The notes beneath the pieces were generated by a model that saw only the letters and a list, made by a program, of their open reading frames with translations, ran no database searches and had not been told where the DNA came from. Below are positions 13,273 through 34,871 of a stretch of DNA of 64,000 bases, in pieces; within the stretch, counting starts at the first letter, position 1, and every line of letters begins with the position of its first letter. Source of the DNA: Microbacterium profundi (GTDB taxonomy: Bacteria > Actinomycetota > Actinomycetes > Actinomycetales > Microbacteriaceae); assembly GCF_000763375.1 (NCBI RefSeq), contig NZ_JPSY01000001.1, forward strand, positions 1,860,001 to 1,924,000, read 5' to 3'. Position numbers and translations under genes: made by a program.

Positions 13273-13283
13273 TTCCTCGGCGA

Positions 13284-16332: not shown

Positions 16333-17281
16333 CAGGCAGCTGCCGACGCTCGGATACGGTGCCGCGAACGTCGGCAACCTCTTCCGCGAGCTCTCGGACG
16401 ATGAGGCATGGGCGGTTCTGGATGCGGCGTGGGAGAGCGGAGTGCGCTACTACGACACCGCGCCGCACTACGGCCTCGGGCTTTCCGAGAAGCGTCTCGG
16501 TGCATTCCTGCAGACCAAGCCGCGCGATGAGTTCGTTCTCTCGACCAAGGCCGGGCGGCTTCTGCGGCCCAACCCGGACTTCGCCGGCGGCCTCGACACT
16601 GCGCATGACTTCTTCGTGCCGGACGAGCTGCAGCGGGTGTGGGACTTCTCGGATGCCGGCATCCGCGCATCTCTCGACGAATCACGAGAGCGGCTGGGGC
16701 TCGACCGGATCGATCTCGTCTTCCTGCACGATCCGGAACGGCACGATCTCGACCTCGCGCTCGCCGAGGCCTTCCCTGCGCTCGAGGCGGTCCGCTCCGA
16801 AGGCGGCGTGCAGGCGATCGGCATCGGATCGATGACGTCCGACGCGCTGGCGCGCGCAGTGCGCGAGGCCGACCTCGACATCATCATGATCGCCGGTCGC
16901 TACACGCTGCTCGAGCAGCCGGCCGCCGCCGACGTGCTGCCCGCATGCCATGAGCGCCGCACGGATGTGGTCGCGGCATCCGTCTTCAACTCCGGCCTGC
17001 TCGCGAAGTCCGAACCGACGCGCGACGACCGCTACGAGTACGGCGGCGTTCCGGACGAGGTCTGGGACAGGCTGCAGCGCATCGTCGCCGTCTGCCGCGC
17101 GCACGACGTGCCACTCCCCGCCGCGGCGATCCAGTTCCCGCTGCGCGACACCGCGACGCAGTCGGTCGTGCTCGGCAGTTCGCGCCCGGAGCAGGTGCGG
17201 CAGAACGCCGAACTCGCCGCACTCACGATTCCCGACGAGTTCTGGGCGGAGCTTGTCGCGGACGGACTCATCCCCGCCTGA
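16319..17281 (+). CDS. Aldo/keto reductase, probable L-fucose dehydrogenase
   Basis: Aldo/keto reductase of 320 residues in the branch containing L-fucose (D-threo-aldose 1-) dehydrogenase and pyridoxal 4-dehydrogenase. It is predicted to oxidise L-fucose to its 1,5-lactone. The tetrad residues are [18 protein letters not shown] (Asp, Tyr), LSTKAGR (Lys) and [10 protein letters not shown] (His). The coenzyme-binding end reads [15 protein letters not shown]. It overlaps the dehydratase gene and is followed 22 bp later by the mutarotase, so the three form one operon. D-arabinose, which has the same configuration at C2-C4, could be a second substrate. Confidence 0.87.
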
Positions 17282-17303
17282 ATCCGAGATCGAGGAACAA
17301 GAC

Positions 17304-17723
17304 ATGCTCGAAGGAATCAACCCGTTGCTCATCGGCGAACTGCTGCTGCATCTGGATCGGATGGGCCACTCGGATGCCGTCGTGATCGCCGACGCGCACT
17401 TTCCCGCTTGGGGTCTCGGCGAACGTGTGATCGATCTGCCTGGCACGACGACGCCCGAGGTCCTGGCCGCGATCCGCACCGTGATCCCGCTCGACGATGC
17501 GCCAGGGCTCGACCTGATGGAATCCGCAGACGGCGAGGTTCTCGACGTGCAGCGTGAATTGATGGATGCTGCCGGCACGACGGCCGACACCACTCGTTTC
17601 GTCGAGCGCTTCGCGTACTACGAGGTCGCGAAGCCCGCGTATCTCATGGTGCGCACGGGCGAGACGCGCAAGTACGGCAACGCGCTGTTGCGCAAAGGCG
17701 TCGTGGGGCACGCCTCTGCGTGA
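17304..17723 (+). CDS. fucU: L-fucose mutarotase, FucU
   Basis: RbsD/FucU-family mutarotase of 139 residues that speeds the change between alpha and beta anomers of L-fucose, supplying the form used by the dehydrogenase. Family residues: His in LDRMGHSDAVVIADAHFPAW (two positions), the RFAYYEVAKPAYLMVRTGE region and the C-terminal YGNALLRKGV. The ATG at 17304 follows CGAGGAAC. It is the last gene of the dehydratase-dehydrogenase-mutarotase operon; an intergenic repeat follows at once. Confidence 0.92.
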   Translation: MLEGINPLLIGELLLHLDRMGHSDAVVIADAHFPAWGLGERVIDLPGTTTPEVLAAIRTVIPLDDAPGLDLMESADGEVLDVQRELMDAAGTTADTTRFVERFAYYEVAKPAYLMVRTGETRKYGNALLRKGVVGHASA

Positions 17724-17730
17724 GCTGGCT

Positions 17731-17827
17731 GGCTTCGACTCGCTGGCGCTCGCTCAACCCGTTTCGTCTCGCTTCGCTCGCTCAACGACCCACGGGGTCG
17801 GGCGTCTCGCTCGCTCAACGCCCCGCG
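17731..17827. repeat. Intergenic 'gcttcgactcgc / gctcaacccgtttcgtctcgc' repeat
   Basis: A copy of the window-wide element with two successive gctcgctcaac words, between fucU and the convergent epimerase gene. It lacks the clear opposite arm seen at 13128-13272. Confidence 0.75.
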
Positions 17828-17848: not shown

Positions 17849-18721
17849 TCAGTGCAGGTCGATCGTCCTCACAGCGTGCAGCGCGTCGCGGAGGAACCGG
17901 TTCGCGTGTGCGGCGAGGTCGTCGGAGTCCTGCCAGAGGTTGCGCCAGATCCCGAGGGTGTTGCTCAGCTCGGCGCTCACCACGGCAGACGAGAACGACT
18001 CGAACACGACCGGTCCGTCATATGCGACGTCGTGCAGCGCGCGGAAGAAGGTCGCGAAGTCGACGGTGCCGGTGCCGAGGTAACCGCGGTGGCTGTCGCC
18101 GATGTGCACGTAGCCGAGCTTTCCGGCTTCGGAGACGTCGTGCACGGGCTGGAAGAAATCCGACTCCTCGATGTTCATGTGGTACGTGTCCAGGTGCACG
18201 CTGACGTCTCCCTCGACGCCGCCGAGGTAGCCGAGCGCACCCCGGCCGGTGTTGAAGACGTTCGACTCGTAGCGGTTCACGACCTCGAGCGAGAGGCGGA
18301 TGCCTCGTTCCGCCGCCTTCGCGGCCAGTTCCGAGATCGCCCTCTGGCTGTTCGCGATGCCTTTCTCCGTCGCCGGCGTCATGTACTTGCCCATCGCCGA
18401 ATAGATCACACCGCACAGCACATCGCCGCCCATCGTCGCGACATGATCCAGGCAGCGCTCGAGAATCGAGACTCCGGCGACGACGACCGCCGGGTCCTCA
18501 CTGGTGAGGTCGGTCGCCGCTGTCAGGCCGAGGGATGCTGTCACGGCGAGGTCGTTGTCGCGCAGCATCCGTTCAGCAAGAGCCGAGTCGAAGCCTGCGG
18601 CATCCATCAGCGGGATCTCGATCAGGTCGAATCCCGCGTGCTTCGTACCTTCGATGGCGCGCCGCAGGCCTGCGTCGTCGAAGGTGCCGGTGAAGACGAG
18701 TCCGTGCGCGCCGATGAGCAT
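17849..18721 (-). CDS. Sugar (phosphate) isomerase/epimerase, D-tagatose/D-allulose 3-epimerase-like
   Basis: TIM-barrel protein of 290 residues in the xylose-isomerase-like superfamily, closest to ketose 3-epimerases. Metal/catalytic residues are visible: Glu in LEVVNRYESNVFNT, Asp and His in LDTYHMNIEESDF, His in GYVHIGDSHRGYLGTGTVDF and Glu in VVFESF. The product would be a C3 epimer of a ketose. The start at 18721 has AAAGGGAAC before it. It is divergent from the ribose-type importer, and the gap carries a CCTGTNNTTACAAGT-like site 42 bp upstream of this gene. Its true substrate is not known. Confidence 0.84.
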   Translation of the reverse strand: MLIGAHGLVFTGTFDDAGLRRAIEGTKHAGFDLIEIPLMDAAGFDSALAERMLRDNDLAVTASLGLTAATDLTSEDPAVVVAGVSILERCLDHVATMGGDVLCGVIYSAMGKYMTPATEKGIANSQRAISELAAKAAERGIRLSLEVVNRYESNVFNTGRGALGYLGGVEGDVSVHLDTYHMNIEESDFFQPVHDVSEAGKLGYVHIGDSHRGYLGTGTVDFATFFRALHDVAYDGPVVFESFSSAVVSAELSNTLGIWRNLWQDSDDLAAHANRFLRDALHAVRTIDLH

Positions 18722-18762
18722 GTCGTTCCCTTTCGCTGCGCGTTCGCGCAAATCCGTGACGA

Positions 18763-18858
18763 AGTTGTTATTACAGGTCTACCATGATCGGATCGGGTTA
18801 GGTACATTTAGGTACAACTTGTGCTGACGCGATCCGGCAGGCACAATTGATCCGATGT
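18763..18858. promoter_or_regulatory. Divergent promoter region with two kinds of operator
   Basis: AGTTGTTATTACAGG (18763-18777) matches the reverse complement of the 15-bp motif at 11 of 15 positions relative to the 10636 copy. ACTTGTGCTGACGCG (18817-18831) is a weaker half match. Between them TTAGGTACA is repeated with a 10-bp period (18798-18806, 18808-18816). TGATCCGATGT (18848-18858) matches the fucose palindrome at 9 of 11 positions and shares ATCCGATGTTT exactly with the dehydratase promoter. Confidence 0.55.
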
Positions 18859-18914
18859 TTGAAATGGATTCCATGATGGAACCGAGTACGACCTTCAAGG
18901 GAGCAGGTGAGCAC

Positions 18915-20417
18915 ATGAGCGATCCCATCCTCCGGGTGGAAGGCATCAGCAAGGGTTTCCCCGGCGTGCAGGCACTCAAGGATGTGCACCTCGAAGTGCA
19001 TGCAGGTGAAGTGCTCGTCCTCGTCGGCGAGAACGGCGCGGGCAAGTCGACGCTCATGAAGATCCTCTCCGGGATCTACACGCGCGACGAGGGCACCATC
19101 ACGTTCGAGGGGCAGCCGGTCGAGCTGACCAGTCCGCTCCAGGCGCAGCAGCTCGGCGTCACGATCATCCACCAGGAACTCAACCTGATGCCCGACCTCA
19201 CCGTCGCGCAGAACATCTACATCGGCCGCGAGCCCACTTCGGTGGGCCTCCTCTCCGAACGACGGCTCAACCGTCAGACCGCTGAACTGCTGAAGCGCCT
19301 GAACATCCGGCTCGACCCGCGCCAGAAGGTCGGCGAACTCACCGTCGCCGAGCAGCAGATGGTCGAGATCGCGAAGGCGCTGTCGTTCAACGCCAAGGTG
19401 CTCATCATGGATGAGCCGACCTCAGCGCTCACCGACAGCGAGACAGAGACGCTGTTCACACTCATCGAGCAGCTCAAGTCCGACGGCACAGGGATCGTCT
19501 ACATCTCGCACCGCATGGACGAGCTGCGCAGGCTCGCCGATCGGGTGAGCGTGCTTCGCGACGGGCATTACATCGGATCTCTCGAGAAGAGCGAGATCAG
19601 CGTCCCGAAGATCATCGAGATGATGGTCGGCCGCGTCATCGACGAGGGAACGCGTCCGTCGGCCCGCGAGCACCAGGACGAACCGATCGTGCTCGACGTC
19701 GCGAATCTGTCGACCAAGACGCTGCTGAAGGACGTGTCGTTCCAATTGCACAGGGGCGAGATCCTCGGCTTCGCCGGTCTCATGGGGGCCGGTCGCACCG
19801 AGACCGCCCGTGCGGTCATCGGAGCCGACCCGCGTAGCGCGGGGACGATCAGGATCAACGGTCGCGACGCGAAGATCCATCAGCCTGAGGACGCCGTGCG
19901 CCGCGGCGTCGGCTACCTCTCCGAGGACCGCAAGCAGCTCGGTCTCATGCTCGAGCAGGACGTCACGTTCAACACCGTCCTCGCCTCGCTCAGTAACTAT
20001 GCGGGCGCGCTCGGCTGGATGGGCGACGGCAAGGCGAAGAGTCAGACCAAGCAGTACGTCGAGCAGCTGCGCGTCAAGACGCCGTCGGTGAACCAGATCG
20101 TCAAACTGCTTTCCGGAGGCAACCAGCAGAAGGTCGTCATCGCCCGCTGGCTGATGCGCGACTGCGAGATCCTCATCTTCGACGAGCCGACCCGAGGCAT
20201 CGATGTCGGCGCGAAGGAAGAGATCTACCGACTCATGCAGCAGCTCGCTGACGCCGGGAAGTCCATCATCGTCATCTCGTCGGAGCTCCCGGAGATCCTG
20301 CGCGTCGCGAACCGCATCGCCGTGTTCGCGAACGGCCGGATCACCGGAACGCTCCGCAACGAAGAAGCCAGCCAGGAGAAGATCATGCAACTCGCAGCCC
20401 ACGGGGAGGAAGACTGA
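18915..20417 (+). CDS. Ribose-type sugar ABC importer, double ATPase subunit (RbsA-like)
   Basis: CUT2-type ATPase of 500 residues with two nucleotide-binding domains. The first has Walker A GENGAGKST near residue 38 and a Walker B ending VLIMDEPTSAL. The second has the degenerate P-loop GLMGAGRTE near residue 292, the signature LSGGNQQKVVIARWL and ILIFDEPTRGID. The ATG at 18915 follows GGGAGCAGGTGAG; an in-frame ATG at 18855 would overlap a predicted operator. It is followed by the permease (stop/start overlap TGATG) and the binding protein. Confidence 0.94.
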   Translation: MSDPILRVEGISKGFPGVQALKDVHLEVHAGEVLVLVGENGAGKSTLMKILSGIYTRDEGTITFEGQPVELTSPLQAQQLGVTIIHQELNLMPDLTVAQNIYIGREPTSVGLLSERRLNRQTAELLKRLNIRLDPRQKVGELTVAEQQMVEIAKALSFNAKVLIMDEPTSALTDSETETLFTLIEQLKSDGTGIVYISHRMDELRRLADRVSVLRDGHYIGSLEKSEISVPKIIEMMVGRVIDEGTRPSAREHQDEPIVLDVANLSTKTLLKDVSFQLHRGEILGFAGLMGAGRTETARAVIGADPRSAGTIRINGRDAKIHQPEDAVRRGVGYLSEDRKQLGLMLEQDVTFNTVLASLSNYAGALGWMGDGKAKSQTKQYVEQLRVKTPSVNQIVKLLSGGNQQKVVIARWLMRDCEILIFDEPTRGIDVGAKEEIYRLMQQLADAGKSIIVISSELPEILRVANRIAVFANGRITGTLRNEEASQEKIMQLAAHGEED

Positions 20418-21448
20418 TGAGCACCCCACAGCAGCCAGGAGAGACGACGACCGTCATCCAGCAGGCCGTGAACGAAGACACCGACAAGCGGGACGTCGCG
20501 GGCTTCCTGAAGCGCCAGCTTCAGCAGTCGCTCGCGTTCGGGACGCTCGTCGTCCTGCTGATCTTCTTCTCGATCGCCAGCCCGAACTTCTTCACCTTCA
20601 GCAACATCGCCACGGTGCTGCTGTCCACCGCGGTGATCGGCATCCTCGCCCTCGGCACCACTTTCGTCATCATCACGGGCGGCATCGACCTGTCGCTGGG
20701 AACCGGGATGGCGCTGTGCGCTGTCATGACGGGTGTGTTCGTCACGAACATGGGGCTCCCGGTGTGGGTCGGCATCCTCGGCGGCATCGCGACCGGCGTG
20801 CTGATGGGGCTGGTCAACGGTCTCAACGTCACGTTCCTGCGCCTGCCCCCGTTCATCGCCACGCTCGCCATGATGATGATCGCCGGCGGTCTCGCCCTGG
20901 TCATCTCCGGTGTCGCACCGATCTACTTCTCGACATCCGCACCGGACTTCAAGAAGATCGCGCTGGGTGTGCTGATCCCCGGCATCCCGAACGCGGTCCT
21001 CATCACGGCGGTGCTCGCGATCATCGCGGCCATCGTGCTGTCCAAGACGCTGCTCGGCCGCTACACGTTCGCGATCGGCTCGAACGAGGAGGCGACGCGC
21101 CTGTCGGGCGTGAACACCCGCCGCTGGACGATCTTCATCTACATGTTCGCGGGCGCCTTCACCGGTATCGCGGGCATCATCATCGCCTCCCGTCTGGATT
21201 CCGCGCAGCCGCAGATCGGCACCGGCTACGAACTGCAGGCGATCGCCGCGGTCATCATCGGCGGCACCTCGCTGCTCGGCGGTCGCGGGTCGATCCTCGG
21301 CACTGTGATCGGCGCGCTCATCATGAGCGTGCTCGTCAACGGCCTGCGCATCCTGTCGATCCAGACCGAGTGGCAGAACGTCGTCGTCGGCGTCGTCGTG
21401 CTGCTGGCCGTGTTCCTCGACTCGCTGCGCAACCGCCAGCGAACCTGA
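20417..21448 (+). CDS. Ribose-type sugar ABC importer, permease subunit (RbsC-like)
   Basis: Inner-membrane permease of 343 residues with about ten hydrophobic segments after a 35-residue polar N-terminus. The family word TGGIDLSLG is present, together with ARNEEATRLSG-like GSNEEATRLSGVNTRRW and GGTSLLGGRGSILGTVIGALI near the C-terminus. Its ATG overlaps the ATPase stop. It forms the channel for the sugar captured by the lipoprotein encoded next. Confidence 0.94.
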   Translation: MSTPQQPGETTTVIQQAVNEDTDKRDVAGFLKRQLQQSLAFGTLVVLLIFFSIASPNFFTFSNIATVLLSTAVIGILALGTTFVIITGGIDLSLGTGMALCAVMTGVFVTNMGLPVWVGILGGIATGVLMGLVNGLNVTFLRLPPFIATLAMMMIAGGLALVISGVAPIYFSTSAPDFKKIALGVLIPGIPNAVLITAVLAIIAAIVLSKTLLGRYTFAIGSNEEATRLSGVNTRRWTIFIYMFAGAFTGIAGIIIASRLDSAQPQIGTGYELQAIAAVIIGGTSLLGGRGSILGTVIGALIMSVLVNGLRILSIQTEWQNVVVGVVVLLAVFLDSLRNRQRT

Positions 21449-21515
21449 TCGTTTCCTTCCCTGTCCACCACAGCGTCGGCCCTGCCGGCAATCACACAGA
21501 ATAATGGAGTTTCCA

Positions 21516-22520
21516 ATGCGATTTGGCAAGAAGACCGCATTCGCGGCACTCGTGGCCGCATCCGCTCTCGTCATGGCCGGCTGCGCCGGCGGCGGCGGTG
21601 ACGTCATCGAAGAGGGTGGCGGCACAGACGGCGGCAGCGGCGACGGCGAGATGTACATCGCCCTCGTCTCGAAGGGCTTTCAGCACCAGTTCTGGCAGGC
21701 CGTCAAGAAGGGCGCAGAGCAGAAGGCCGAAGAACTGGGCGTGAAGATCACTTTCGAGGGCCCCGCTGCCGAGACCGAGATCGCGCAGCAGCTCGAGATG
21801 CTCACCGCTGCCATCGACAAGAACCCGGATGCCATCGCCTACGCAGCTCTGGACCCCGAGGCGTGCGTCGCCCCGCTCGACCAGGCGAAGTCGAAGGACA
21901 TCCCGGTGGTGTATTTCGACGCACCGTGCAACGGCGACGTGGGCCTGAGCCTGTCCGCCACCGACAGCAAGGTCGCGGGAGCCCTGGCGGCCGAGAAAAT
22001 GGCAGAGCTCATCGGCGGAGAGGGCGAGGTGGCCATCGTCGGTCACTCGCAGATCAACTCCACCGGTGTCGAGCGCCGAGACGGCTTCGTCGACAAGATC
22101 GAGGCGGACTACCCCGACATCAAGATCGTCGACATCCAGTACGGTGACGGCGACCACCTCAAGTCGGCCGACATCGCCAAGGCGATGATCGCGGCTTACC
22201 CCGATCTCAAGGGCATCTACGGGACCAACGAGGGCTCGGCCATCGGCGTCGTCAACGCCGTCAACGAGCTGAACCTCGAAAAGGGCAAGATCACCATCAT
22301 CGGATTCGACTCGGGTGCGGCGCAGATCAACGCGATCAAGGACGGCACCATGGCCGGCGCCATCACACAGGACCCGATCGGCATCGGCGAGCAGGTCGTC
22401 CAGGCCGCGTACGACGCGGCCAACGGCGACTCGGTCGAGGAGTTCTACGACACCGGCTCGTACTGGTACGACGCCAAGAACATCGAAGACGAGGACATCG
22501 CAGCGGTCCTCTACGAGTGA
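21516..22520 (+). CDS. Ribose-type sugar-binding lipoprotein (RbsB-like)
   Basis: Periplasmic-binding-protein-like lipoprotein (family 4, PBP1 fold) of 334 residues. A type II signal peptide with Cys23 (VMAGC) and a Gly/Glu/Asp-rich linker precede the mature domain. Expected sugar-contacting positions include the aromatic QHQFW region near the start, and ETEIAQQLEML, DAPC, GTNEGSAIG and GFDSGAAQ. TGGAG lies at the right distance before the ATG at 21516; the ATG at 21504 overlaps that site and is rejected. A stem-loop terminator follows. Ligand unknown: fucose or the sugar of the neighbouring kinase operon are both possible. Confidence 0.93.
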   Translation: MRFGKKTAFAALVAASALVMAGCAGGGGDVIEEGGGTDGGSGDGEMYIALVSKGFQHQFWQAVKKGAEQKAEELGVKITFEGPAAETEIAQQLEMLTAAIDKNPDAIAYAALDPEACVAPLDQAKSKDIPVVYFDAPCNGDVGLSLSATDSKVAGALAAEKMAELIGGEGEVAIVGHSQINSTGVERRDGFVDKIEADYPDIKIVDIQYGDGDHLKSADIAKAMIAAYPDLKGIYGTNEGSAIGVVNAVNELNLEKGKITIIGFDSGAAQINAIKDGTMAGAITQDPIGIGEQVVQAAYDAANGDSVEEFYDTGSYWYDAKNIEDEDIAAVLYE

Positions 22521-22534
22521 TCCTCTTCTGAGCG

Positions 22535-22568
22535 AGCGGCCTCCGTCTTCGGGCGGGGGCCGCTTTGC
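22535..22568 (+). terminator. Rho-independent-like terminator of the sugar importer operon
   Basis: AGCGGCC (22535-22541) pairs with GGCCGCT (22558-22564) around a 16-base loop with a short inner stem, followed by TTTG. It lies 15 bp after the binding-protein stop. Confidence 0.65.
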
Positions 22569-22591
22569 ATTGCGGGATGCTGTGGCAGTGA

Positions 22592-22858
22592 CGGCTTCGA
22601 CTCCCTTCGGTCGCTCAACCCGTTTCGTCTCGCTCCGCTCGCTCAACGCCCCGCAGAAGTCGTCTTTGCGTTGCGGGATGCCCTGGCTTCGACTCCCTTC
22701 GGTCGCTCAACCCGTTTCGTCTCGCTCCGCTCGCTCAACGCCCCGCAGAAGTCGGTCGCTCAACGCCCCGCAGAAGTCGGTCGGGTCGTTGAGCGCAGGC
22801 GCGGAGCGCCGAAGACGAAAAGCGTTGAGCGAGGAGCGCAGCGACGAGTCGAAACGGG
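22592..22858. repeat. Cluster of intergenic repeats, gene-free gap of about 340 bp
   Basis: Two direct copies of 'ggcttcgactcccttcggtcgctcaacccgtttcgtctcgctccgctcgctcaacgccccgcagaagtc'-type DNA (from 22592 and from 22685) are followed by short gctcaacgccccgcagaagtcgg iterations. An inverted arm (gttgagcg...gagacgaaa-like, gacgagtcgaaacggg) ends at 22858. No coding signal was seen in the gap. Confidence 0.8.
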
Positions 22859-22861
22859 ACT

Positions 22862-23821
22862 TCACCCGAGATCGAGCAGCCTGGCGGGGTTCGCGACCAG
22901 CATCCGCTCCACGGCACCCGCGCCGATGTGCGACCGCAGGCGCGGCAGATAGCGGTCGCCGAGATAGGCGAGGCCGGGCATGCCGCCGTAAGAGATGTAG
23001 CGGGTGCGGCGGGCGACGTCGCCGCCGAGCAGGATGCGGTCGGCTCCCACCTGTGCCACGACCGCGGCTGTCAGCTCGAGCAGCTCAGCATCCGAGCGCG
23101 TGCGCGGTCGCGCGAAGCCGTCGTATCCCAGATACGCACCGCGTTCGGCGAGCGAGGCGTGCAGACCGGCATCCGGATCCCGATCGGCGTGGGCGAGGAC
23201 GACCCGATCGGATGCCACGCCCTCCGCCGCGAGCAGGTCGAGCACCTCGTGGGCGGCGGTGCAGAACTCCAGGTGCACCATGATCGGCGCCTGTGTCGCG
23301 CGGTGCGCGGCGGCCAGTGCCTCGAGCGTCGTGCGCTCGAACGGGCTGATGTGCCAGTAACCGATGCCGCCCTTGAGCATCCCGGCGCGCACCGGCTGGC
23401 CGTGCGGGGTGCGGGCGAGCGGAACGTCGGGGCTCTCGAAGACGACGGCGTCGTCCACCGGCATCCCTCTTGTCACCTCACCGATGAAGAGCTCTGCGAG
23501 CTGCTCGGCCGTCCACACCTGCATCGGATGCTCTTCGCCGTAGTGCGCCTCGCGGTGCAGGCCCGTCGTCGCGACGACGTGCAGGCCGGTCGCGACGCTG
23601 ATGCGCGCGATGGCCTCCGGATTCCGGCCGAGGCCGAAGGGGGTGGCATCCACCATCGAGGCGAAGCCGCTCTTCTTCAGTAGCGCGGCCTCTGCGCCGG
23701 AGGCATCCTCGTCGTCGAGTTCGTCGCCGGGCAGCAGCGGGCTCACCTGGAAGAGGTGCTCGTGGTAGTTCGTCGATCCGAGCAGCGCAGGGTCGATGTC
23801 TCCAAGGACCGTGCGGATCAT
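22862..23821 (-). CDS. Phosphotriesterase-family metal-dependent hydrolase, probable sugar lactonase
   Basis: Amidohydrolase-superfamily protein of 319 residues in the phosphotriesterase branch. Metal ligands can be read: NYHEHLF (HxH), a lysine in GMLKGGIGYW that could be the bridging residue, MVHLEF (His), LAHADRDP (His) and LLGGDVARR (Asp). Some relatives are lactonases acting on phosphorylated furanose lactones (for example Listeria Lmo2620). With a kinase and two dehydrogenases in the same operon, a lactonase role fits. Its ATG overlaps the stop of the gene before it (TGATG). It is last in the operon. Substrate unknown. Confidence 0.82.
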   Translation of the reverse strand: MIRTVLGDIDPALLGSTNYHEHLFQVSPLLPGDELDDEDASGAEAALLKKSGFASMVDATPFGLGRNPEAIARISVATGLHVVATTGLHREAHYGEEHPMQVWTAEQLAELFIGEVTRGMPVDDAVVFESPDVPLARTPHGQPVRAGMLKGGIGYWHISPFERTTLEALAAAHRATQAPIMVHLEFCTAAHEVLDLLAAEGVASDRVVLAHADRDPDAGLHASLAERGAYLGYDGFARPRTRSDAELLELTAAVVAQVGADRILLGGDVARRTRYISYGGMPGLAYLGDRYLPRLRSHIGAGAVERMLVANPARLLDLG

Positions 23822-24747
23822 CAGCGCACTCCCTCGGCGGCCTCCGCGAGCCGCTCGACGATCTCGGGTGTGAGATCGAGCTCGAACACGTCGGCGACGA
23901 CCTGCGACCAGCCGTGGATGAAGTACCGCCACCCGTCGACGACGTGCAGGCCGCGTGCGGCTTCCCGCGCGCGTGCCTGGTGCAGGAACTCCAAGGACCC
24001 GCGGTAGTTGAACTCCCAGACGTACGCGTCTTCGGGGAAGACGACCTCATCCGGCAGAGGGGAGCCCGGGCGATCCTTGCCGAGTCCTGTCGCGTTGACG
24101 AATAGCGATCCGGGAGGCGCTTCGGCGACGATCGCAGCGGCGTCCGCCGGAGCATCCGTGCGCACGTACTCGATGAATCCGTCGCGGGTGCCGTGCTGGC
24201 GGTGCACCTCGCGCAGGTGCTCGAGCTTGGCATCGTCGCGTGCGGTGACGATCACGCGGGACGGGGCGTCGGCCCGCTCGGCGAGCGCCCAGCTGAGTGC
24301 TGTGCCCGATCCACCCGCGCCGAGGACGACGACCTCGGCCCCGGTGCGCGCGAAGTGATCGGCCGGAAGGAAATCGTTCAGGGCGAGGTCGACCGTGATC
24401 GGATCCTTCGCCCGTCCCGACAGGCGTGAGCCGCGCTTGGCGATGCTCGAGATCTCCGAGCACGACACCGCGAACGGGTCGAGCTCGTCGAACAGGTCGG
24501 ATGCCGCGGCATACACATTCATCTTGTGGGTGGTGACCAGGGCGCCGCGGTGATGCGGGTCGTCGCGGATCTGCTCGACCATCGCGCGGTACTGCGCCGG
24601 CGTGGCATCCATCGGCAGATCGTGCCCGACGAGCGTGCGGGTCGGAAGCCCCAGGATGTCCGCCCACAGAGGGAACACCTTCATGATCGACGAGGATCCG
24701 GTCGTGACGCCGACGAAGCCCATGTAGTCGGACGAAGGAGCGGTCAT
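23821..24747 (-). CDS. Shikimate-dehydrogenase-like oxidoreductase, diverged
   Basis: A 308-residue protein with the two-domain layout of shikimate/quinate dehydrogenases. The N-terminal substrate domain keeps the lysine motif as VTTHKMNVY. The C-terminal Rossmann domain has GAGGSGTALSWALAERA and FVNATGLGKDRPGSPLP. The NTDG motif of true AroE enzymes is missing; the matching region reads DLALNDFLPADHF. A polyol, cyclitol or sugar-derived substrate is therefore more likely than shikimate. Both ends overlap neighbouring genes (ATGA upstream, TGATG downstream), so it is firmly part of the kinase operon. Confidence 0.78.
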   Translation of the reverse strand: MTAPSSDYMGFVGVTTGSSSIMKVFPLWADILGLPTRTLVGHDLPMDATPAQYRAMVEQIRDDPHHRGALVTTHKMNVYAAASDLFDELDPFAVSCSEISSIAKRGSRLSGRAKDPITVDLALNDFLPADHFARTGAEVVVLGAGGSGTALSWALAERADAPSRVIVTARDDAKLEHLREVHRQHGTRDGFIEYVRTDAPADAAAIVAEAPPGSLFVNATGLGKDRPGSPLPDEVVFPEDAYVWEFNYRGSLEFLHQARAREAARGLHVVDGWRYFIHGWSQVVADVFELDLTPEIVERLAEAAEGVR

Positions 24748-25706
24748 GATGCGGCCTTTCGGGAGACGGGGAAGGCGGGTTCGCCGCCCTCGAGAACGGC
24801 GATCACGTCGTCGAGCGACATGGATCCCATGTTGTCGACGGCCTGCGTGGTCTGCGCCCCCAGGTGCGGCGTGACGATCACGCGGTCGGCGAGTTCGGGC
24901 GCGAGCAGGGGGCTGGCGGATGCCGCGGTGTCGCCGTCGAGCGTATCGGCGGCGTACCCGGCGAGGATGCCGTCGCGCAGGGCGTGCGCGACCTCGCGCT
25001 CGTCGACCAGGTCTGGCCTGGCGGTGTTGACGATGATCGTGCCGCGTCGGATGCTGTCGAGCAGCGCCCCGGCGACGAGCTGCTGCCCTCCCGGGGCGTG
25101 CAGGGTGATGAGGTCGGCACTGCGGAACAGTTCGTCGAGCTCGACCGGCTCTGCGCCGAGTTCGCGGATGCGATCTGCCGGCAGGAACGGGTCGGCGGCG
25201 AGGACGCGCGGTCCGAACCCGCTCAGCCGTCGTGCGACGCCCTGGCCGATGCGGCCGAATCCGACGATCCCGACCGTCGCGGCGCCGAGCTCGCGACCGC
25301 GTCGCACACTCCAATCACCGTCGCGCACGCGCCGGTCGCCGTCGGGTATGCAGCGCAAAGTGGACAGCATGAGGCCGACGGCGTGGTCGGCGACGGCATC
25401 CGCATTGGCGCCGGGAGTGTTGGTGACCAGGATGCCGCGGGCCTCAGCAGCGTCGAGATCGACCGCTTCGGTGCCGACGCCGTAGCGCGCGATGATCTTG
25501 AGGTCCGGTGCGGCGTCGAGATGCGCGCCCGTGATCGGGCCGGTGCCCGCAATCCAGGCATCCGCTGCCTCGAGCAGCGGGGCGAGTGTCTGGAGCTCGT
25601 GGTGCGCCGGTCCTCGGACGATCTCGTGCCCGGCATCCGTCGCTCGCGCGACGAGATCGATGTCGCCGTCCGAGAAGGAGCGGCTGGTGGTCAGGATGAT
25701 GCCCAT
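24744..25706 (-). CDS. D-isomer-specific 2-hydroxyacid dehydrogenase family protein
   Basis: NAD-dependent 2-hydroxyacid dehydrogenase of 320 residues. The NAD motif is VGIVGFGRIGQGVARRL. The catalytic arginine lies in IIVNTARPDLVDE and the catalytic histidine in VTPHLGAQT. The usual DVFxxEP stretch between them is replaced by DTLDGDTA, so it is a divergent member. It would interconvert a 2-hydroxy acid (for example an aldonate) and a 2-keto acid. It overlaps the kinase stop (TGATG) and the next gene's start (ATGA). 3-Phosphoglycerate dehydrogenase is the default database label but is unlikely in this setting. Confidence 0.82.
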   Translation of the reverse strand: MGIILTTSRSFSDGDIDLVARATDAGHEIVRGPAHHELQTLAPLLEAADAWIAGTGPITGAHLDAAPDLKIIARYGVGTEAVDLDAAEARGILVTNTPGANADAVADHAVGLMLSTLRCIPDGDRRVRDGDWSVRRGRELGAATVGIVGFGRIGQGVARRLSGFGPRVLAADPFLPADRIRELGAEPVELDELFRSADLITLHAPGGQQLVAGALLDSIRRGTIIVNTARPDLVDEREVAHALRDGILAGYAADTLDGDTAASASPLLAPELADRVIVTPHLGAQTTQAVDNMGSMSLDDVIAVLEGGEPAFPVSRKAAS

Positions 25707-27313
25707 CAGCGTGCGCCGCGGTCGGAGTCGGCGGGTACGGATGTCGGCACGGAATCACGGATGTCGGTCGATTCCGTCGATTCCGACCGACGACTGTGCT
25801 TCTCGACTGACAAGCGTCCCGACGAACCGGGCGCGGCGGCGAACCAGGGCGCGAGAGCGTCGTAAGCCGACGTGAAGCGGGCGTGCCGCGATGCGTACAC
25901 GCTGTGACGCCCGGCATCCGGAACGAACTCGGCCGTCACCTCGCTGAGTTCGCGCGCGGCAGAGAAGTCGGCGAGCCCGAGCCCGACCGCACCCGTGACG
26001 GCGGCACCGAGGCTGTTCGCCTCCTCGACGATCGTGCGCCGCCGCACCGGCACGCCCCACACATCCGCGAGGATCTGCAGCAGAACGTCGCTCTGCGCAC
26101 CGCCGCCCACCGCGTCGATGCGGTCGATCGTCGCGCCGGACTCGCGGAACGCGTGGATGCTGCTGAGCAGGTTGTATCCGAGGCTCTCCAACACCGCGCG
26201 GACGAGGTGCTGGCGGGTGTGATGGCGCCCGATGCCGATGAACGCGCCACGGGCGTGCGGGTCCCAGATGGGGGAGCGCTCGCCGAGCAGGTAGGGCAGG
26301 AAGTAGAGGTCTTCGGTGTCGAGATCGCCCCCGGCCTCGGCCGTGAGCCGAGCCGTCTCGGGCTTCGCGGGATCGGGCGAGAGCGCCTCGCTGATCCACT
26401 GGATCGAAGCGCCGCCGGCCTGCATCGTGGCGGTCGGCACGAACGATCCCGGCACGACGTTGTCGAACGTGAAGGTGCGCATGCCCGCGTCGATCAGCGG
26501 CGTGTGCGAGGCGAACGAGATCCACGACGACGTGCCCAGTGACACGTATGCGCCGTCCTCCGGTGCGACGATGCCGGATCCGACGGCGGCCATCGGGCCG
26601 TCGCCGCCGCCCATGACCACCTGAACGCCCGTGTGAAGACCGAGGGCTTGTGCGGCAGCATCCGTGAGCGAACCGGCGATCGCGGTGGAGTCGAGGATCT
26701 CGGGGAACAGCGAGCGGTCGAGGCGTGCCGCGGCCAGCACCTCGTCTGACCAGTCGCCGGTCTGCTGGTCGTAGGCGTTCGTGCCGGAGGCGTCGGAGCG
26801 GTCGGTCGCGAGGCGTCCGGTGAGGCCGAGGACGATGTAGTCCTTGGCGATGCAGAAGCGGCGCACGCGCGACCAGACATCGGGCTCGTTGTCGCGCACC
26901 CACATGATCTTCTCCACCGAGTACGTGGGATTCAGGCGATGTCCGAGCATCCGGTAGGCGTGTTCGGCGCCGAGCGCCTGTTCCAGTTCGCGCTGCTGCG
27001 AGCCGGCGCGGGTGTCGGCCCAGATGATCGCGGGGCGCACGGGTCGTCCGTCGCCGTCGAGCAGCACCGCGCCCATCATCTGCCCGCTGACGACGAGCCC
27101 CTGAATATCCACCGGCGAGGTCTCCGTGCGGGCGAGGAGGTCGCGGGTCGCCGAGACCACGGCATCCCACCAGTCCTGAGGGTCCTGCTCTGCCACGCCG
27201 CCGGCGGCGAAGTGCGCCGGATAGCCGACGGTCGTGGACGCCACGAGTCGGCCGTCGTCGTGGTGCAGCGATGCCTTGTTCCCGGTGGTACCGAGGTCGT
27301 GGGCGATGATCAC
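25706..27313 (-). CDS. FGGY-family carbohydrate kinase, xylulokinase-like
   Basis: Sugar kinase of 535 residues. The N-terminal phosphate loop is AHDLGTTGNKASL, and the catalytic aspartate is probably in IIWADTRAGSQQ. The second domain has SLGTSSWISF and GGGAQSDVLLQILADVWGVPV. The substrate-loop word is SGQMMG instead of the SGQMHG of xylulose kinases, so the substrate may differ. The GTG at 27313 gives the standard VIIAHDLGTT start; longer frames run through the operator region. The C-terminal ~35 residues are Ser/Arg/Glu-rich and beyond the family's core. First gene of a four-gene overlapping operon, divergent from a cupin isomerase. Confidence 0.86.
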   Translation of the reverse strand: MIIAHDLGTTGNKASLHHDDGRLVASTTVGYPAHFAAGGVAEQDPQDWWDAVVSATRDLLARTETSPVDIQGLVVSGQMMGAVLLDGDGRPVRPAIIWADTRAGSQQRELEQALGAEHAYRMLGHRLNPTYSVEKIMWVRDNEPDVWSRVRRFCIAKDYIVLGLTGRLATDRSDASGTNAYDQQTGDWSDEVLAAARLDRSLFPEILDSTAIAGSLTDAAAQALGLHTGVQVVMGGGDGPMAAVGSGIVAPEDGAYVSLGTSSWISFASHTPLIDAGMRTFTFDNVVPGSFVPTATMQAGGASIQWISEALSPDPAKPETARLTAEAGGDLDTEDLYFLPYLLGERSPIWDPHARGAFIGIGRHHTRQHLVRAVLESLGYNLLSSIHAFRESGATIDRIDAVGGGAQSDVLLQILADVWGVPVRRRTIVEEANSLGAAVTGAVGLGLADFSAARELSEVTAEFVPDAGRHSVYASRHARFTSAYDALAPWFAAAPGSSGRLSVEKHSRRSESTESTDIRDSVPTSVPADSDRGAR

Positions 27314-27367: not shown

Positions 27368-27397
27368 CCTGTCATTACAAGTCCTGTAGTTACAAGT
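27368..27397. promoter_or_regulatory. Tandem 15-bp operator motifs before the kinase and isomerase genes
   Basis: CCTGTCATTACAAGT (27368-27382) is followed at once by CCTGTAGTTACAAGT (27383-27397), 13 of 15 identical. The reverse complement of the same word stands before rbsK (10636-10650). It lies in the 98-bp gap between the divergent kinase operon and the cupin isomerase gene. It is probably bound by the UTRA regulator encoded at 8.4-9.2 kb. Confidence 0.72.
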
Positions 27398-27411: not shown

Positions 27412-28020
27412 GTGAGCATCCATCCCGCCGTGGACATCCCCACCCTGCTGGAGATCTCGCCGCAGGGCGGAATCGAGGGGCGGTCCCGCCGATACGAGAA
27501 ATATCTCGGTGACATGGATGGCGTCTACCGCGATGATCAGGCGTGGCAGAATGCCGTCGGCGAGCGCGGAACGGATGACCTGGTCTACTGGGTCGACGAC
27601 CAGCGCTACCAGGAGGGCCCCGGCGCACTGATCGTCGGCACCAGCACCCTGCTGCCCGGACGCTACGGCGAAGAGTTCGCCATGACCCGTGGCCACCTGC
27701 ACGCCGTCGCCGACCGGGCCGAGCTCTACTACTGCCTGAGCGGGCACGGAGTGATGCTGCTGGAGACGCTCGACGGGCAGACCTCGGCTGTCGAGCTGGC
27801 GCCGGGCCAGGCCGTCAACGTGCCCGGCCACTGGATCCACCGCAGCGTGAACGTGGGGGAAGAGCCGTTCGTCACGCTGTTCTGCTACGCCGCAGATGCG
27901 GGACAGGACTATGCCGTCATCGCCGAGGCCGGCGGCATGAAGAACCTCGTCGTCGCGGACGGCGACGGCTGGGCGCTGAAGGACAACCCCGACCACGCCG
28001 GATACCGCGCGGCCGAGTAG
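27412..28020 (+). CDS. Cupin-type glucose-6-phosphate isomerase family protein
   Basis: Cupin protein of 202 residues of the archaeal-type phosphoglucose isomerase family, metal-dependent and unrelated to the ordinary Pgi. Metal ligands are in TRGHLHAVADRAELYY (His, His, Glu) and GHWIHRSVNVGEEP (His). GTG start at 27412 with AGGAGAGC upstream. It shares a tandem-operator promoter with the FGGY kinase operon, so it probably isomerises the sugar phosphate of that pathway and is not a housekeeping enzyme. Relatives include fructose-6-phosphate and other aldose-ketose isomerases. Confidence 0.85.
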   Translation: MSIHPAVDIPTLLEISPQGGIEGRSRRYEKYLGDMDGVYRDDQAWQNAVGERGTDDLVYWVDDQRYQEGPGALIVGTSTLLPGRYGEEFAMTRGHLHAVADRAELYYCLSGHGVMLLETLDGQTSAVELAPGQAVNVPGHWIHRSVNVGEEPFVTLFCYAADAGQDYAVIAEAGGMKNLVVADGDGWALKDNPDHAGYRAAE

Positions 28021-28028
28021 GTTGTGAT

Positions 28029-28389
28029 CACTTCGACAGGCTCAGTGATCGGGGGCGTCTCCCTGAGGCGGGGCGTCGCTCCCTGAGCCGGTGGCGTCGC
28101 TCCCTGAGCCGGTGGCGTCGCTCCCTGATGCGGGGCGTCGCTCCCTGATGCGGGGCGTCGCTCCCTGATGCGAAGGAATCGCTCCCTGATGCGGAGGAAT
28201 CGCTCCCTGATGTGAAGGAATCGTTCCCTGATGCGGGGGCGTCGCTCCCTGATGCGGGGGCGTCGCTCCCTGAGGCGGGGCGTCGCTCCCTGATGCGGGG
28301 CGTCGCTCCCTGATGCGGGGCGTCGCTCCCTGATGCGAAGGAATCGCTCCCTGATGCGGAGGAATCGCTCCCTGAGCCTGTCGAAGGGT
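28029..28389. repeat. Minisatellite of 16 units (20-21 bp), flanked by the ccctgagcctgtcgaaggg element
   Basis: A gene-free gap of 377 bp between convergent genes. Sixteen units start with CCCTGA from 28061 on, of the form ccctgatgcggggcgtcgct with variants gaaggaatcgct, ggaggaatcgct and ccggtggcgtcgct. Units 4-7 and 12-15 have the same variant order, so a block was duplicated. The array is flanked by cttcgacaggctcag (28031-) and ends in ccctgagcctgtcgaaggg (28370-28388). Confidence 0.92.
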
Positions 28390-28397
28390 CGATTCCG

Positions 28398-28928
28398 TCA
28401 CCGCTGCCGCGCCCGGTAGGCGGCCACCGCGTTGCGGTTCGTGCAGGTCGTGGAGCAGTACCGACGCGAGCGGTTGCGGGAGAGATCGAGGACGATCCCC
28501 TCGCACTCCTCGTCGGCGCACACCGCGAGGCGGCTGCCCTCCTCTGCGCGGACGACGTCGAGCAGCGCCATCGCTGTTTCGGCGAGGATGCGCTCGGCGA
28601 GCGGCCGGTCATCGGCGACCGCGTGCAGATGCCAGTCCGCCCCGTCGTGGCGGACGACGTGGGCGTCGAAGGTCACCTCGCGCAGTGCGTCGTTGATCTC
28701 TTCCACCATCGCGTCACGTGGAGCGAGCAGCATCCCGCGAAGCCGTGGTCGCAGGCTGCGGATGGCCGCCAACTCGTCGGCGTCGCAGTCGATACGCCCC
28801 GTGTACGGGAAGGTCGTGAGGAACTCCTCGAAGTCGTGCCCCGTCTCGAGCGTGTCGGGGTCCTCTGCAGTGTTGGCGAGGTGGACAGCGGCGCGCAGCG
28901 CTTCGACCGTGTCATCTGTGAAGAGCAT
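28398..28928 (-). CDS. CGNR zinc-finger protein (ABATE-type putative stress regulator)
   Basis: A 176-residue protein. The N-terminal ~125 residues form the ABATE-type domain (ALRAAVHLANTAEDPDTL, LRPRLRGMLL). The C-terminal CGNR zinc finger has Cys residues in VCADEECEGIVLDLSRNRSRRYCSTTC and the motif TNRNAVAAYRAR, expected to touch DNA. The ATG at 28928 lies 39 bp from the divergent EamA transporter gene. This gene pair is common in actinobacteria, and the finger protein is presumed to control the transporter. The signal is unknown. Confidence 0.86.
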   Translation of the reverse strand: MLFTDDTVEALRAAVHLANTAEDPDTLETGHDFEEFLTTFPYTGRIDCDADELAAIRSLRPRLRGMLLAPRDAMVEEINDALREVTFDAHVVRHDGADWHLHAVADDRPLAERILAETAMALLDVVRAEEGSRLAVCADEECEGIVLDLSRNRSRRYCSTTCTNRNAVAAYRARQR

Positions 28929-31373: not shown

Positions 31374-31434
31374 GTATACGTTCTCTTGCTCGCAATGAGC
31401 GAGCGTGCCCGTATGGACAATTTATGTATACACT
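31374..31434 (+). promoter_or_regulatory. GTATAC sites before the prp-operon regulator
   Basis: TTGTATACG (31372-31380) and ATGTATACAC (31424-31433) both contain the palindrome GTATAC, typical of VanR-type FCD regulators. The second overlaps a -10-like TACACT (31429-31434) that ends six bases before the GTG start at 31441, so the transcript is probably leaderless and self-repressed. Confidence 0.5.
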
Positions 31435-31440
31435 AGCCGT

Positions 31441-32160
31441 GTGAGCACCACTGTCGAGGGCACCACTCCCGAGCGAACCAGGGCGAGTGATCGCGCCTAC
31501 GCGACGCTGCTCGAGGAGATCCAGTCCGGCGATCTCGCTCCAGGCACAGTTCTCGCCGAGGTCGAGCAGGCCTCCCGTCTCGGCGTCAGCCGCACGCCGC
31601 TGCGAGAAGCGCTGCAGCAGCTCAGCGCCGACGGCCTGGTCGAGCAGCAGTCGCCGAGGGTCACGGTTGTGACGGACATCGACGCCGACGACATCCGATC
31701 GCTCTTCGAGATCCGCCGCGCGCTGGAGGAGTCGGCCGCCCGCCTCGCCGCCGCACGCGGCGACGCCGAGCTGTTCGCGCGCCTTGCCGCCGAGTTCGCG
31801 GATGCCGGAGCATCCCTCGATGCCGCGACGGGGCGCGACGGCTACTACGCGCTCATCGCGCGCTTCGATCGGGCGGTGGATGCTGCGGTCGACAACGACT
31901 ACATCGCCGCCGCCCTGCGCACCGTGCGCACGCATCTCGTGCGAGTGCGCCGGCTGTCTCGCGACAACCCTGCTCGGCTCGAAGCATCCGTCGCCGAGCA
32001 CCGGCTCATCGCCGAGGCCCTCGCCGAACGCGACGGCGACCTCGCCGCGCACGCCACGCATGTGCATCTGCGGAACGCTCTCACCAGCATCCTCGGGAGC
32101 ATCCACAACCCAGACATCGCTCAGAACCCCGAGCGCACCGAGAACGAAGGACAGCCATGA
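31441..32160 (+). CDS. GntR-family regulator (FCD domain) of the methylcitrate operon
   Basis: Regulator of 239 residues. The winged helix covers about residues 18-80 ([35 protein letters not shown]). An FCD/VanR-type ligand domain follows ([31 protein letters not shown]). GTG start at 31441, possibly leaderless. Its stop overlaps the prpD start (ATGA), so it is co-translated with the methylcitrate genes and very likely controls them. Actinobacteria such as Corynebacterium use other regulator families for prp genes, so this arrangement is a lineage feature. Confidence 0.87.
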
Positions 32161-33701
32161 CCGTCACCCACCACGTCCGCGTCTACAAGAGCGAAGAAGA
32201 CCTGCCCCGCGAGAACCAGCTGGCATGGAAGATCGCCGAGGTCGCGACGGATGCCGTCGAGGTCGAGCAGGACGTCGTCGACATGATCATCAACCGCATC
32301 ATCGACAATGCCTCCGTCGCCGCAGCATCCCTCACCCGAGGCCCGATCATCGCGGCCCGCGACCAGGCGTTCAGCCACCCCGTCTCGACCGGTGGCAAGG
32401 GCGCGACTGTCTTCGGCGCACCGCTCGATGCGCACACCAGCCCTGAGTGGGCGGCCTGGGCCAACGGCGTCGCCGTGCGTGAGCTCGATTACCACGACAC
32501 CTTCCTCGCCGCGGAGTACTCCCACCCGGGTGACAATATCCCGCCGATCCTCGCGGTCGCCCAGCACACCGGGGCCGACGGGCGTGCCCTCGTCCGCGGC
32601 ATCGCCACCGGCTACGAGATTCAGGTCGACTTGGTGAAGGCGATCTGCCTGCACAAGCACAAGATCGACCATGTCGCGCACCTCGGCCCTTCGGCCGCCG
32701 CCGGGATCGGCACGCTTCTCGGCCTCGACGCCGAGACGATCTACCAGGCCGTTTCGCAGGCGCTGCACACCACCACCGCCACACGGCAGAGCCGCAAGGG
32801 CGAGATCTCGACGTGGAAGGCGCACGCCCCGGCGTTCGCAGGCAAGATGGCCGTCGAGGCGGTCGATCGCGCCATGCGCGGCCAGACCAGCCCCTCGCCG
32901 ATCTACGAAGGTGAAGACGGCGTGATCGCCTGGATGCTGGACGGCCCGGATGCCGCGTACGAAGTGCCGCTGCCCCCCAAGGGCGAAGCGAAGCGCGCGA
33001 TCCTCGACTCGTACACGAAGGAGCACTCCGCGGAGTATCAGGCGCAGGCCTGGATCGACCTGGCGCGGAAGCTGCACAAGGAATATTTCTCGCTCCCTGA
33101 GCCTGTCGAAGGGCGCACCTGGCATGACATCGAGTCCGTTGTGCTGCACACCTCGCACCACACGCACTACGTGATCGGCTCTGGCGCGAACGACCCGCAG
33201 AAGTACGACCCGACCGCGTCGCGCGAGACGCTCGACCACTCGATCCCGTACATTTTCACCGTGGCGCTGCAGGATGGCAGCTGGCACCACGTCGACTCGT
33301 ATGCTCCTGAGCGTGCCGGTCGTGCGGACACCGTCGAGTTGTGGAACAGGGTCACGACGCTCGAGGATGCCGAGTGGACACGTCGCTACCACTCCAACGA
33401 CATCGCGGAGAAGGCGTTCGGCGGTCGCGTGGAGATCACCTTCACCGATGGCTCGACGCTGGTCGACGAGATCGCGGTCGCGGATGCGCACCCGCTCGGC
33501 GCCAGGCCCTTCGCCCGCGAGAACTACATCGCGAAGTTCCGCCTGCTGGCTGAGCCGGTGCTGTCGTCTGAGGAGATCGAGCGGTTCCTGTCGCTCGTGC
33601 AGCGCCTGCCGGAGCTCACCGCCGCTGAGGTCGCCGAGCTCTCGATCATCGCGAAGCCGGGTGTCGTGGCATCCGAGCCCACCACCAAGGGGTTGTTCTG
33701 A
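32157..33701 (+). CDS. prpD: 2-methylcitrate dehydratase, PrpD (MmgE/PrpD family)
   Basis: Dehydrates 2-methylcitrate in the methylcitrate cycle of propionate use. It has 514 residues and the family words [62 protein letters not shown] and [13 protein letters not shown]. About residues 311-319 read SLPEPVEGR: this is a copy of the tcgctccctgagcctgtcgaaggg element inserted in frame, where the unbroken family sequence would run from KEYF to TWHDIES. The insert seems tolerated. It is the first enzyme gene of the prpDBC set. Confidence 0.92.
33088..33115 (+). repeat. ccctgagcctgtcgaaggg element inserted in frame inside prpD
   Basis: The stretch around 33091-33113 (CTCCCTGAGCCTGTCGAAGGG) is identical to the end of the minisatellite at 28368-28388. 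It adds a run of nine residues to PrpD without a frameshift. Confidence 0.85.
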
Positions 33702-33706
33702 TGACG

Positions 33707-33810
33707 CCCTTCGACGGGCTCAGGGCTCGGGGCCGCAGCCGGTCGCTGAGCCTGAGCCTTACCCGGTCGCTGAGCCTGAGCCTTAGCCGGTCGCTGAGCC
33801 TGTCGAAGCG
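33707..33810. repeat. Tandem ccggtcgctgagcctgagcctta units in the prpD-prpB gap
   Basis: Begins with cccttcgacgggctcaggg, then two full ccggtcgctgagcctgagcctta units and a last ccggtcgctgagcctgtcgaagc. The same element family as at 28 kb, here inside an operon between prpD and prpB. Confidence 0.8.
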
Positions 33811-33837
33811 TCCGGCGATCCACCGAAAGGACTTCTA

Positions 33838-34737: not shown

Positions 34738-34751
34738 TCGGTCGCACCCGC

Positions 34752-34852
34752 GGGTCGTTGAGCGAGCGAAGCGAGACGAAACGCATTGAGGACACTTCGA
34801 CTCGCTACGCTCGCTCAGTGCGGGCCTCCGTGAGTCGAAGTGACGAAACGCA
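34752..34852. repeat. Intergenic inverted repeat in the prpB-prpC gap
   Basis: gggtcgttgagcgagcgaagcgagacgaaacgc, then cttcgactcgctacgctcgctcag, then gagtcgaagtgacgaaacgc: the window-wide element in both orientations. It sits within the prp operon, just before the prpC ribosome site. Confidence 0.8.
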
Positions 34853-34871
34853 ATCTGCAAAGGAGCACGGT

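Follow-up and report, generated by a model that had tools for sequence, protein, structure and literature searches.

The operon and its conservation

We analyzed a window of 64,000 nucleotides of the Microbacterium profundi genome (contig NZ_JPSY01000001.1, positions 1,860,001 to 1,924,000) and describe here four genes encoded on its minus strand at 22862–27313. The first gene, KIN (25706–27313), has a GTG start and encodes a xylulokinase-like kinase of the FGGY family with the pocket motif SGQMMG (TIGR01312, 397.4 bits, cut-off 380.25). It is followed by HADH (24744–25706), a member of the D-2-hydroxyacid dehydrogenase family (PF02826 and PF00389), by SDL (23821–24747), an AroE-fold dehydrogenase which is shikimate-dehydrogenase-like and not AroE itself, and by PTE (22862–23821), a hydrolase of the phosphotriesterase family (PF02126, 128 bits) and proposed phospholactonase. 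An earlier description made from the letters alone, below called the sequence-only reading, had reported four codirectional genes with stop/start overlaps as well as the SGQMMG motif, and both are confirmed by the window sequence: the junctions read, in order, CGCTGATGGGC (TGATG), ATCATGACC (ATGA) and CGCTGATGATC (TGATG). In relatives the KIN/HADH junction is TGATG in all 14 cases listed, out of 39 found, and the other junctions range from overlaps to short gaps. The kinase carries a low-complexity tail rich in Ser and Arg beyond about residue 490 (25706–25840).

The sequence-only reading took these four genes for the whole system. It thereby missed a cupin isomerase adjoining the kinase, a partner of the 2-keto-3-deoxy-6-phosphogluconate (KDPG) aldolase family and a shared operator. 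They make up roughly half of a gene set shared widely among bacteria, which is probably a route for an unusual sugar. This set is real and conserved, lies under one conserved motif and is matched to no named pathway by the tools used. Every enzyme in it belongs to a known superfamily. The earlier statement that no known pathway fits stands as far as the searches reached, and a literature search, covering few subscription journals and no bioRxiv, gave nothing on the gene set.

A scan of named genomes with the SDL alignment yielded at least 592 stretches, at least 575 of them encoding a relative, from which the best 80 loci were kept. With 20 further stretches from relatives and nine plasmid loci the collection reached 109 loci and, after removal of the duplicates in the pairs L032/L081 and L033/L103, 107; the residue alignments given below predate this removal. 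About 20 loci come from close Microbacterium relatives, and the loci are thus not independent. The grouping with SDL recurs across these 107 distinct loci: near SDL we find KIN at 94, the cupin isomerase gene (CUP) at 86, HADH at no fewer than 83 (matches overlapping the kinase tail were discarded, as at L045), PTE at 67 and a KDPG-aldolase-family gene (EDA) at 55. Within the best 80 loci the corresponding counts are 65 for KIN-type genes, 64 for HADH, 62 for CUP, 56 for PTE and 36 for the aldolase family. The grouping of the operon genes with SDL is not due to chance.

Carriers of the module include Actinomycetota, Alphaproteobacteria, Chloroflexi, a planctomycete, a verrucomicrobial metagenome-assembled genome, a spirochaete and Paenibacillus, several of these being metagenome bins, and a Paraburkholderia plasmid adds the Betaproteobacteria. 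On annotated alphaproteobacterial plasmids the usual gene order is CUP-EDA-SDL-HADH-MBL-RpiR/SIS, where MBL is a hydrolase of the metallo-beta-lactamase fold; the exceptions are one plasmid without EDA, one rearranged and one with the cupin unannotated. Among the matches listed, M. profundi (96%) and M. murale (94%) have the nearest named relatives of the SDL protein. A phylum-wide search gave SDL matches in 112 of 346 genomes at E 0.001 and in 11 at E < 1e-20; the rest resemble ordinary AroE and were not used. In three loci (L052, L041 and L038) SDL is present twice within one genome region. One copy at L052 lies with a PTE gene and the other with an MBL gene, and at L041 and L038 there is a transketolase-half gene nearby.

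CUP (27412–28020, plus strand) is divergent from KIN and encodes a cupin-type phosphoglucose isomerase (PGI; PF06560, 120.3 bits, cut-off 20.7; E 1.7e-41 against structure 1j3p). Its metal ligands His, His, Glu and His are conserved in all 85 aligned proteins. We analyzed 199 Microbacteriaceae genomes, 32 of which gave a match to SDL; seven with weak matches (up to 31.6 bits) were left out, so that 25 genomes with a close SDL were retained. PF06560 occurs in 24 of the 199 genomes and shares a contig with SDL in 23 of these, at a distance of 99 to 9333 bases. The cupin is thus present in 23 of the 25 SDL genomes (lacking in G097 and G159) but in only one of the 174 others (G103, a 23-bit match), and Fisher's exact test, which ignores kinship, gives p 9e-27. 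CUP is a core member of the set. Since the classical PGI profile found just a 23-bit piece of a 541-residue frame in this genome, CUP also stays a candidate for the housekeeping PGI.

The enzymes of the set

SDL has the AroE fold, and scores far below the curated shikimate dehydrogenase profiles (TIGR00507, 31.5 of 200.2 bits; the best PRK00258 model, 39.7 of 252); the Pfam scan of the window proteins gave no PF08501 match in it. The sequence-only reading had stated that SDL lacks NTDG. This motif is missing indeed, yet its Asp is retained in the sequence AKDP, which leaves the catalytic Lys/Asp pair complete; both residues (K75 and D115, aligned to AroE chains) are invariant in 56 aligned SDL sequences. 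The AroE substrate motifs NTDG and NT are both replaced. As the catalytic pair is still there, the absence of NTDG does not imply that AroE chemistry has been lost. A biosynthetic AroE role was considered for SDL and rejected, as two PF08501 genes are present elsewhere in the genome. Where the second Rossmann strand ends, most SDL proteins outside the Actinomycetota have NRS, the NADP type in AroE, and many actinobacterial SDL proteins of PTE-type loci have D-T-S, D-T-D or A-R-x (56 sequences). The cofactor may have switched from NADP to NAD within SDL. The deposited names of SDL relatives are nearly all shikimate dehydrogenase or a family name thereof, with one hypothetical protein, among the 120 matches listed of 7835 scored. 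Relatives in the AroE family act on sugars and sugar-like rings, namely 5-ketofructose reductase (PMC7954740) and enzymes for iminosugar precursors (PMC9881201).

The other enzymes also retain their catalytic residues. In PTE the metal ligands H, H, K, H, H and D are found in all 69 aligned sequences, and the nearest solved relatives by sequence are 3pnz and 3msr, presumably Lmo2620 and MS0025, phospho-pentonolactone (pentonolactone-5-phosphate) lactonases. The catalytic Asp of KIN is present in 78 of 78 aligned kinases, 49 of which have SGQMMG and 12 CGQMHG; SGQMHG is the substrate motif of xylulokinases. KIN lies above the TIGR01312 cut-off and lacks SGQMHG. The assignment of KIN as the sole xylulokinase was rejected, as another gene in the genome is above the xylulokinase-profile cut-off (400 bits). 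HADH reaches 207.2 bits with the phosphoglycerate dehydrogenase profile TIGR01327, under the cut-off of 454. Its reported lack of DVFxxEP is correct as far as the motif goes; the protein reads DTLDGDT at this place and has Asp instead of Glu as catalytic acid. Counting the window protein, the catalytic Arg and His are conserved in 87 of 87 aligned sequences, and the acid is Glu in 46 and Asp in 41.

MBL takes the place of PTE in Proteobacteria and some few other groups. PTE alone is found at 66 of the 107 loci, MBL alone at 23, both at one (L052, with its two SDL copies) and neither at 17; for the 109 loci before duplicate removal the mutual exclusion gives a Fisher p of 7e-12. Lineage explains much of this distribution. 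Inside the Microbacteriaceae both kinds occur, with MBL at L038, L041, L042 and L052. The MBL proteins match PRK00685 and more weakly UlaG, both under the cut-offs. Both superfamilies have members that hydrolyse phospholactones. Two unrelated folds in one slot are most simply explained by the hydrolysis of the same bond, and the exclusivity thus supports lactone hydrolysis.

The one PF01081 gene (KDPG aldolase family) of the genome lies 26 kb from the operon, just outside the window, and is 80% identical to the gene following PTE in Microbacterium sp. 8M. The Schiff-base Lys and the catalytic Glu are present in all 57 aligned aldolases of SDL loci. No Edd gene above the TIGR01196 cut-off was found in the genome, the one match having 249 of 708.25 bits. 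That the aldolase is present without Edd agrees with a part in this route.

Operator, regulon and neighboring genes

The 3.37-Mb genome contains the motif CTTGTAANKACAGG without mismatch at three positions (27368, 27383 and 10637), all in this island. Two of these perfect copies, 15 bases apart, lie between CUP and KIN (27368–27396, minus strand) and are conserved in relatives. The third (10637–10650, plus strand) is situated between the genes of an RbsK-like protein and of FSA. Weaker copies with two mismatches are found in the same promoter region as the third copy (10610–10623, minus strand; in some relatives also before PfkB) and between the genes of EPI, a sugar epimerase, and RbsA (18764–18777, plus strand). 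With up to two mismatches the window has five matches against 0.33 expected, and five were reached in none of 100 shuffles. Over the whole genome, in contrast, the two-mismatch motif is not enriched (20 matches versus 41 for the reversed control). The weak sites at 10610 and 18764 therefore rest on their conserved positions, and only perfect or position-conserved sites were used.

In the relatives we scanned 57 loci (L045–L101, 1.06 Mb) with up to two mismatches, assigning sites within 250 bases 5′ of genes. Of 90 matches, 78 are at three promoters of the set and 12 elsewhere: 59 sites in 36 loci 5′ of CUP or KIN, 12 sites in 12 loci 5′ of EPI or RbsA, and seven sites in six loci 5′ of FSA or PfkB. 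The reversed control gave 10 matches, none of them at the three promoters. The likely binder is a GntR-UTRA regulator (8370–9206, minus strand; PF00392 and PF07702), because its homologue in relatives often adjoins CUP with the motif in between. It probably controls the set through the CTTGTAANKACAGG sites.

The regulator gene is preceded on the minus strand by RbsD, a D-ribose pyranase (9207–9605; 150 bits, cut-off 93), and an RbsK-like member of the ribokinase family (9626–10570), which at 291.9 bits just misses the TIGR02152 cut-off of 299.65. Back to back with RbsK-RbsD-GntR stands FSA, of the transaldolase/fructose-6-phosphate aldolase family (10673–11341, plus strand, start read from the sequence; PF00923, 118 bits, scanned from 10685), with the third perfect copy in front of it. 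EPI (17849–18751, minus strand; PF01261, true start probably further in) has a xylose-isomerase-like barrel, and its best profile is psicose 3-epimerase (152 bits, cut-off 300 missed). A CUT2 sugar transporter is encoded on the plus strand by an RbsA-like ATPase gene (18855–20417; RbsA profile 590 bits, cut-off 745 missed), a reading frame for an RbsC-like permease (20417–21448), homologues of which adjoin RbsA in relatives, and an RbsB-like binding protein gene (21504–22520; PF13407, 198 bits).

The nearest solved structures to this binding protein are 4kqc, 4wut and 3g1w. Binding proteins from the SDL clusters of Rhizobium leguminosarum and Aureimonas match 4RY9 at 371 and 372 bits, and the SDL-linked one of Plantactinospora is nearest to 4rxt (148 bits). 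The presumed ligands are D-talitol (4RY9), D-fucose (4wut) and D-arabinose (4rxt); these similarities do not fix the substrate.

Some further features of the window should be mentioned. Intergenic repeats that contain TTCGACTC...CGCTCAACCCGTTTCGTCTCGC-like units are present at 22530–22860 and 17730–17800. A repetitive GC-rich stretch at 28040–28520, whose reading frames contain repeated SGSDSxASGSD units, adjoins an ABATE/CGNR regulator gene. The genes at 31405–36062 encode GntR and MmgE/PrpD proteins (profile matches for GntR and PrpD) and, judged by eye, PrpB-like and citrate-synthase-like proteins, probably a methylcitrate cycle. By eye, the region 46812–55213 holds genes for coenzyme F420 synthesis and for F420-dependent enzymes.

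Possible pathway and known systems

Our tentative reading, in which substrate, step order and every reaction are inferred, is that the four genes and CUP serve to break down an unusual sugar or a ketose derived from a polyol. The sugar would be taken up by the CUT2 transporter, KIN would phosphorylate the ketose to its omega-phosphate and CUP would convert the ketose phosphate into an aldose phosphate. The cyclic form of the aldose phosphate would then be oxidised at C1 by SDL, with NAD(P)+ as cofactor, and become a phospholactone. PTE or MBL would open the lactone to a phosphoaldonate and HADH would oxidise C2 to give a 2-keto-phosphoaldonate. Finally, the KDPG-aldolase-family enzyme would split this product in a retro-aldol reaction, to hydroxypyruvate and glyceraldehyde-3-phosphate in the case of a hexose. 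The phosphorylate-oxidise-hydrolyse-oxidise scheme of the sequence-only reading survives as a proposal, now strengthened by the exclusivity of PTE and MBL and by the intact catalytic residues. For a hexose as substrate the chances are about even, and a pentose is a more hesitant suggestion. We favor a hexose because the cleavage would then yield glyceraldehyde-3-phosphate, because the best profile of EPI, though below its cut-off, is psicose 3-epimerase, because cupin PGIs act on hexose 6-phosphates, and because two SDL-linked binding proteins are near 4RY9 with its presumed ligand D-talitol. The main text of a paper on alditol dehydrogenases (PMC12193009) describes no operon or kinase.

Several observations weigh against this pathway. 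Six of the 107 loci are without any of the six partners sought, and 17 are without both PTE and MBL. PTE is below the cut-off of the phospho-furanose-lactonase model NF045706, the best of three models, and two MBL proteins are below that of the UlaG model NF008688. The aldolase is detached from the operon here, is near SDL at just 55 of the 107 loci and may serve something else; the genome-wide motif scan detected no operator site over its gene. It is also unusual for a KDPG-type aldolase to act on a 3-hydroxy substrate. At seven of the 107 loci (L034, L088, L098, L104, L110, L115 and L125), some of them without a KDPG-type aldolase, a gene for a DeoC-type aldolase is near SDL, which is a possible alternative for the last step. 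Since several kinds of binding proteins are linked to SDL, the substrate may not be the same in all lineages. The presence of RbsD and the RbsK-like gene in the regulon speaks for a pentose, with which the last cleavage is less attractive.

The same set might also attack another position. SDL would then oxidise or reduce the ring elsewhere than at C1, in the way that 5-ketofructose reductase acts on C5. The product would be a keto-lactone phosphate resembling ascorbate 6-phosphate, which PTE or MBL would open, and HADH would be a keto-acid reductase. We consider this unlikely, as the cupin isomerase at 86 of the 107 loci better fits a simple aldose phosphate and no gene in the set would obviously make a lactone from a ketone. 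That the genes serve a common pentose, with KIN as xylulokinase, RbsK and RbsD for ribose, and SDL, PTE and HADH as a side route for pentose 5-phosphates or oxidised by-products, appears somewhat less likely still. KIN and RbsD are above their cut-offs, the ribokinase just misses its own and the structures nearest to PTE are presumably of pentonolactone-5-phosphate lactonases; however, the genome has the second xylulokinase-profile gene at 400 bits, KIN has SGQMMG and not SGQMHG, and a pentulose 5-phosphate would require no oxidative route.

At 12206–17723 there is an oxidative L-fucose-type cluster (a fuconolactonase-like amidohydrolase at 135 of 400 bits, an FAA hydrolase, an enolase-superfamily dehydratase, an aldo-keto reductase and a FucU-like mutarotase), and such clusters often adjoin the SDL operon in Actinomycetota. 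The operon could be part of this neighboring pathway and act on L-fucose, L-galactose, D-arabinose or by-products. Genes of these kinds adjoin it here and in several relatives (e.g., L073, L074, L085, L095 and L101), and the SDL cluster of Paenibacillus includes a gene for L-fucose isomerase (L124:13332–15146; 932 bits, cut-off 850). Nevertheless we regard this explanation as improbable, since the window motif scan found no operator site among the 12206–17723 genes, such genes are not seen near SDL in most non-actinobacterial loci and 6-deoxy sugars cannot carry a 6-phosphate. The sequence-only reading had left the choice between sugar, polyol and cyclitol. A cyclitol or quinate-like ring, with SDL acting on one of its hydroxyls in the manner of AroE and quinate dehydrogenase, would suit the fold, and IolG-like oxidoreductase genes, judged by eye, are near SDL in L100, L105, L121 and L124. 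It has now become very improbable, because a sugar-phosphate isomerase and a phospholactonase-like hydrolase are core parts and common partners, and SDL has other residues in place of AroE's NTDG and NT motifs.

A conserved catabolic module is thus present in several phyla without a named pathway, as far as the searches show, and the label shikimate dehydrogenase on SDL can lead to wrong annotation in the synthesis of aromatic amino acids. Oxidation of a sugar phosphate at C1, if SDL does catalyse it, would be a new role for the AroE fold. A wider and more doubtful proposition is that this branch of the AroE family consists of sugar-phosphate 1-dehydrogenases central to a phosphorylative, doubly oxidative pathway in at least seven phyla, in which the second oxidation would replace the Entner-Doudoroff dehydration and lactonases of two unrelated folds would be interchangeable. 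Such a pathway would have escaped notice through the name shikimate dehydrogenase given to its dehydrogenase.

With the proposed C1 oxidation the set would be like the Entner-Doudoroff and oxidative pentose-phosphate pathways, which proceed from a sugar phosphate over a lactone to a phosphoaldonate and involve an enzyme of the KDPG aldolase family. Unlike there, no gene here is above the Edd cut-off, an oxidation at C2 is proposed instead of the dehydration, and dehydrogenase and lactonase are of other folds. The 2-ketogluconate pathway (KguE, KguK and KguD) also has a 2-hydroxyacid dehydrogenase homologue that interconverts a 2-keto-6-phosphoaldonate and a phosphoaldonate, but it has no PTE, cupin or SDL, and the direction proposed here is the reverse. 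SDL shares the fold and the catalytic Lys/Asp pair with AroE, YdiB and 5-ketofructose reductase, yet it is below the shikimate dehydrogenase cut-offs, lacks NTDG and lies among sugar-phosphate genes. MBL is a weak profile match to UlaG, the L-ascorbate 6-phosphate lactonase, and belongs to the same superfamily; the two proteins reach only 43.9 and 28.4 of 306 bits, and the better match, PRK00685, is under its cut-off as well. The phospho-furanose lactonases Lmo2620 and MS0025 are the nearest solved sequences to PTE over the full length, with the metal ligands and the GGDVARR...YGG.PG loop conserved, although PTE of the window, at 97.7 of 630 bits, is not an equivalog of these enzymes.

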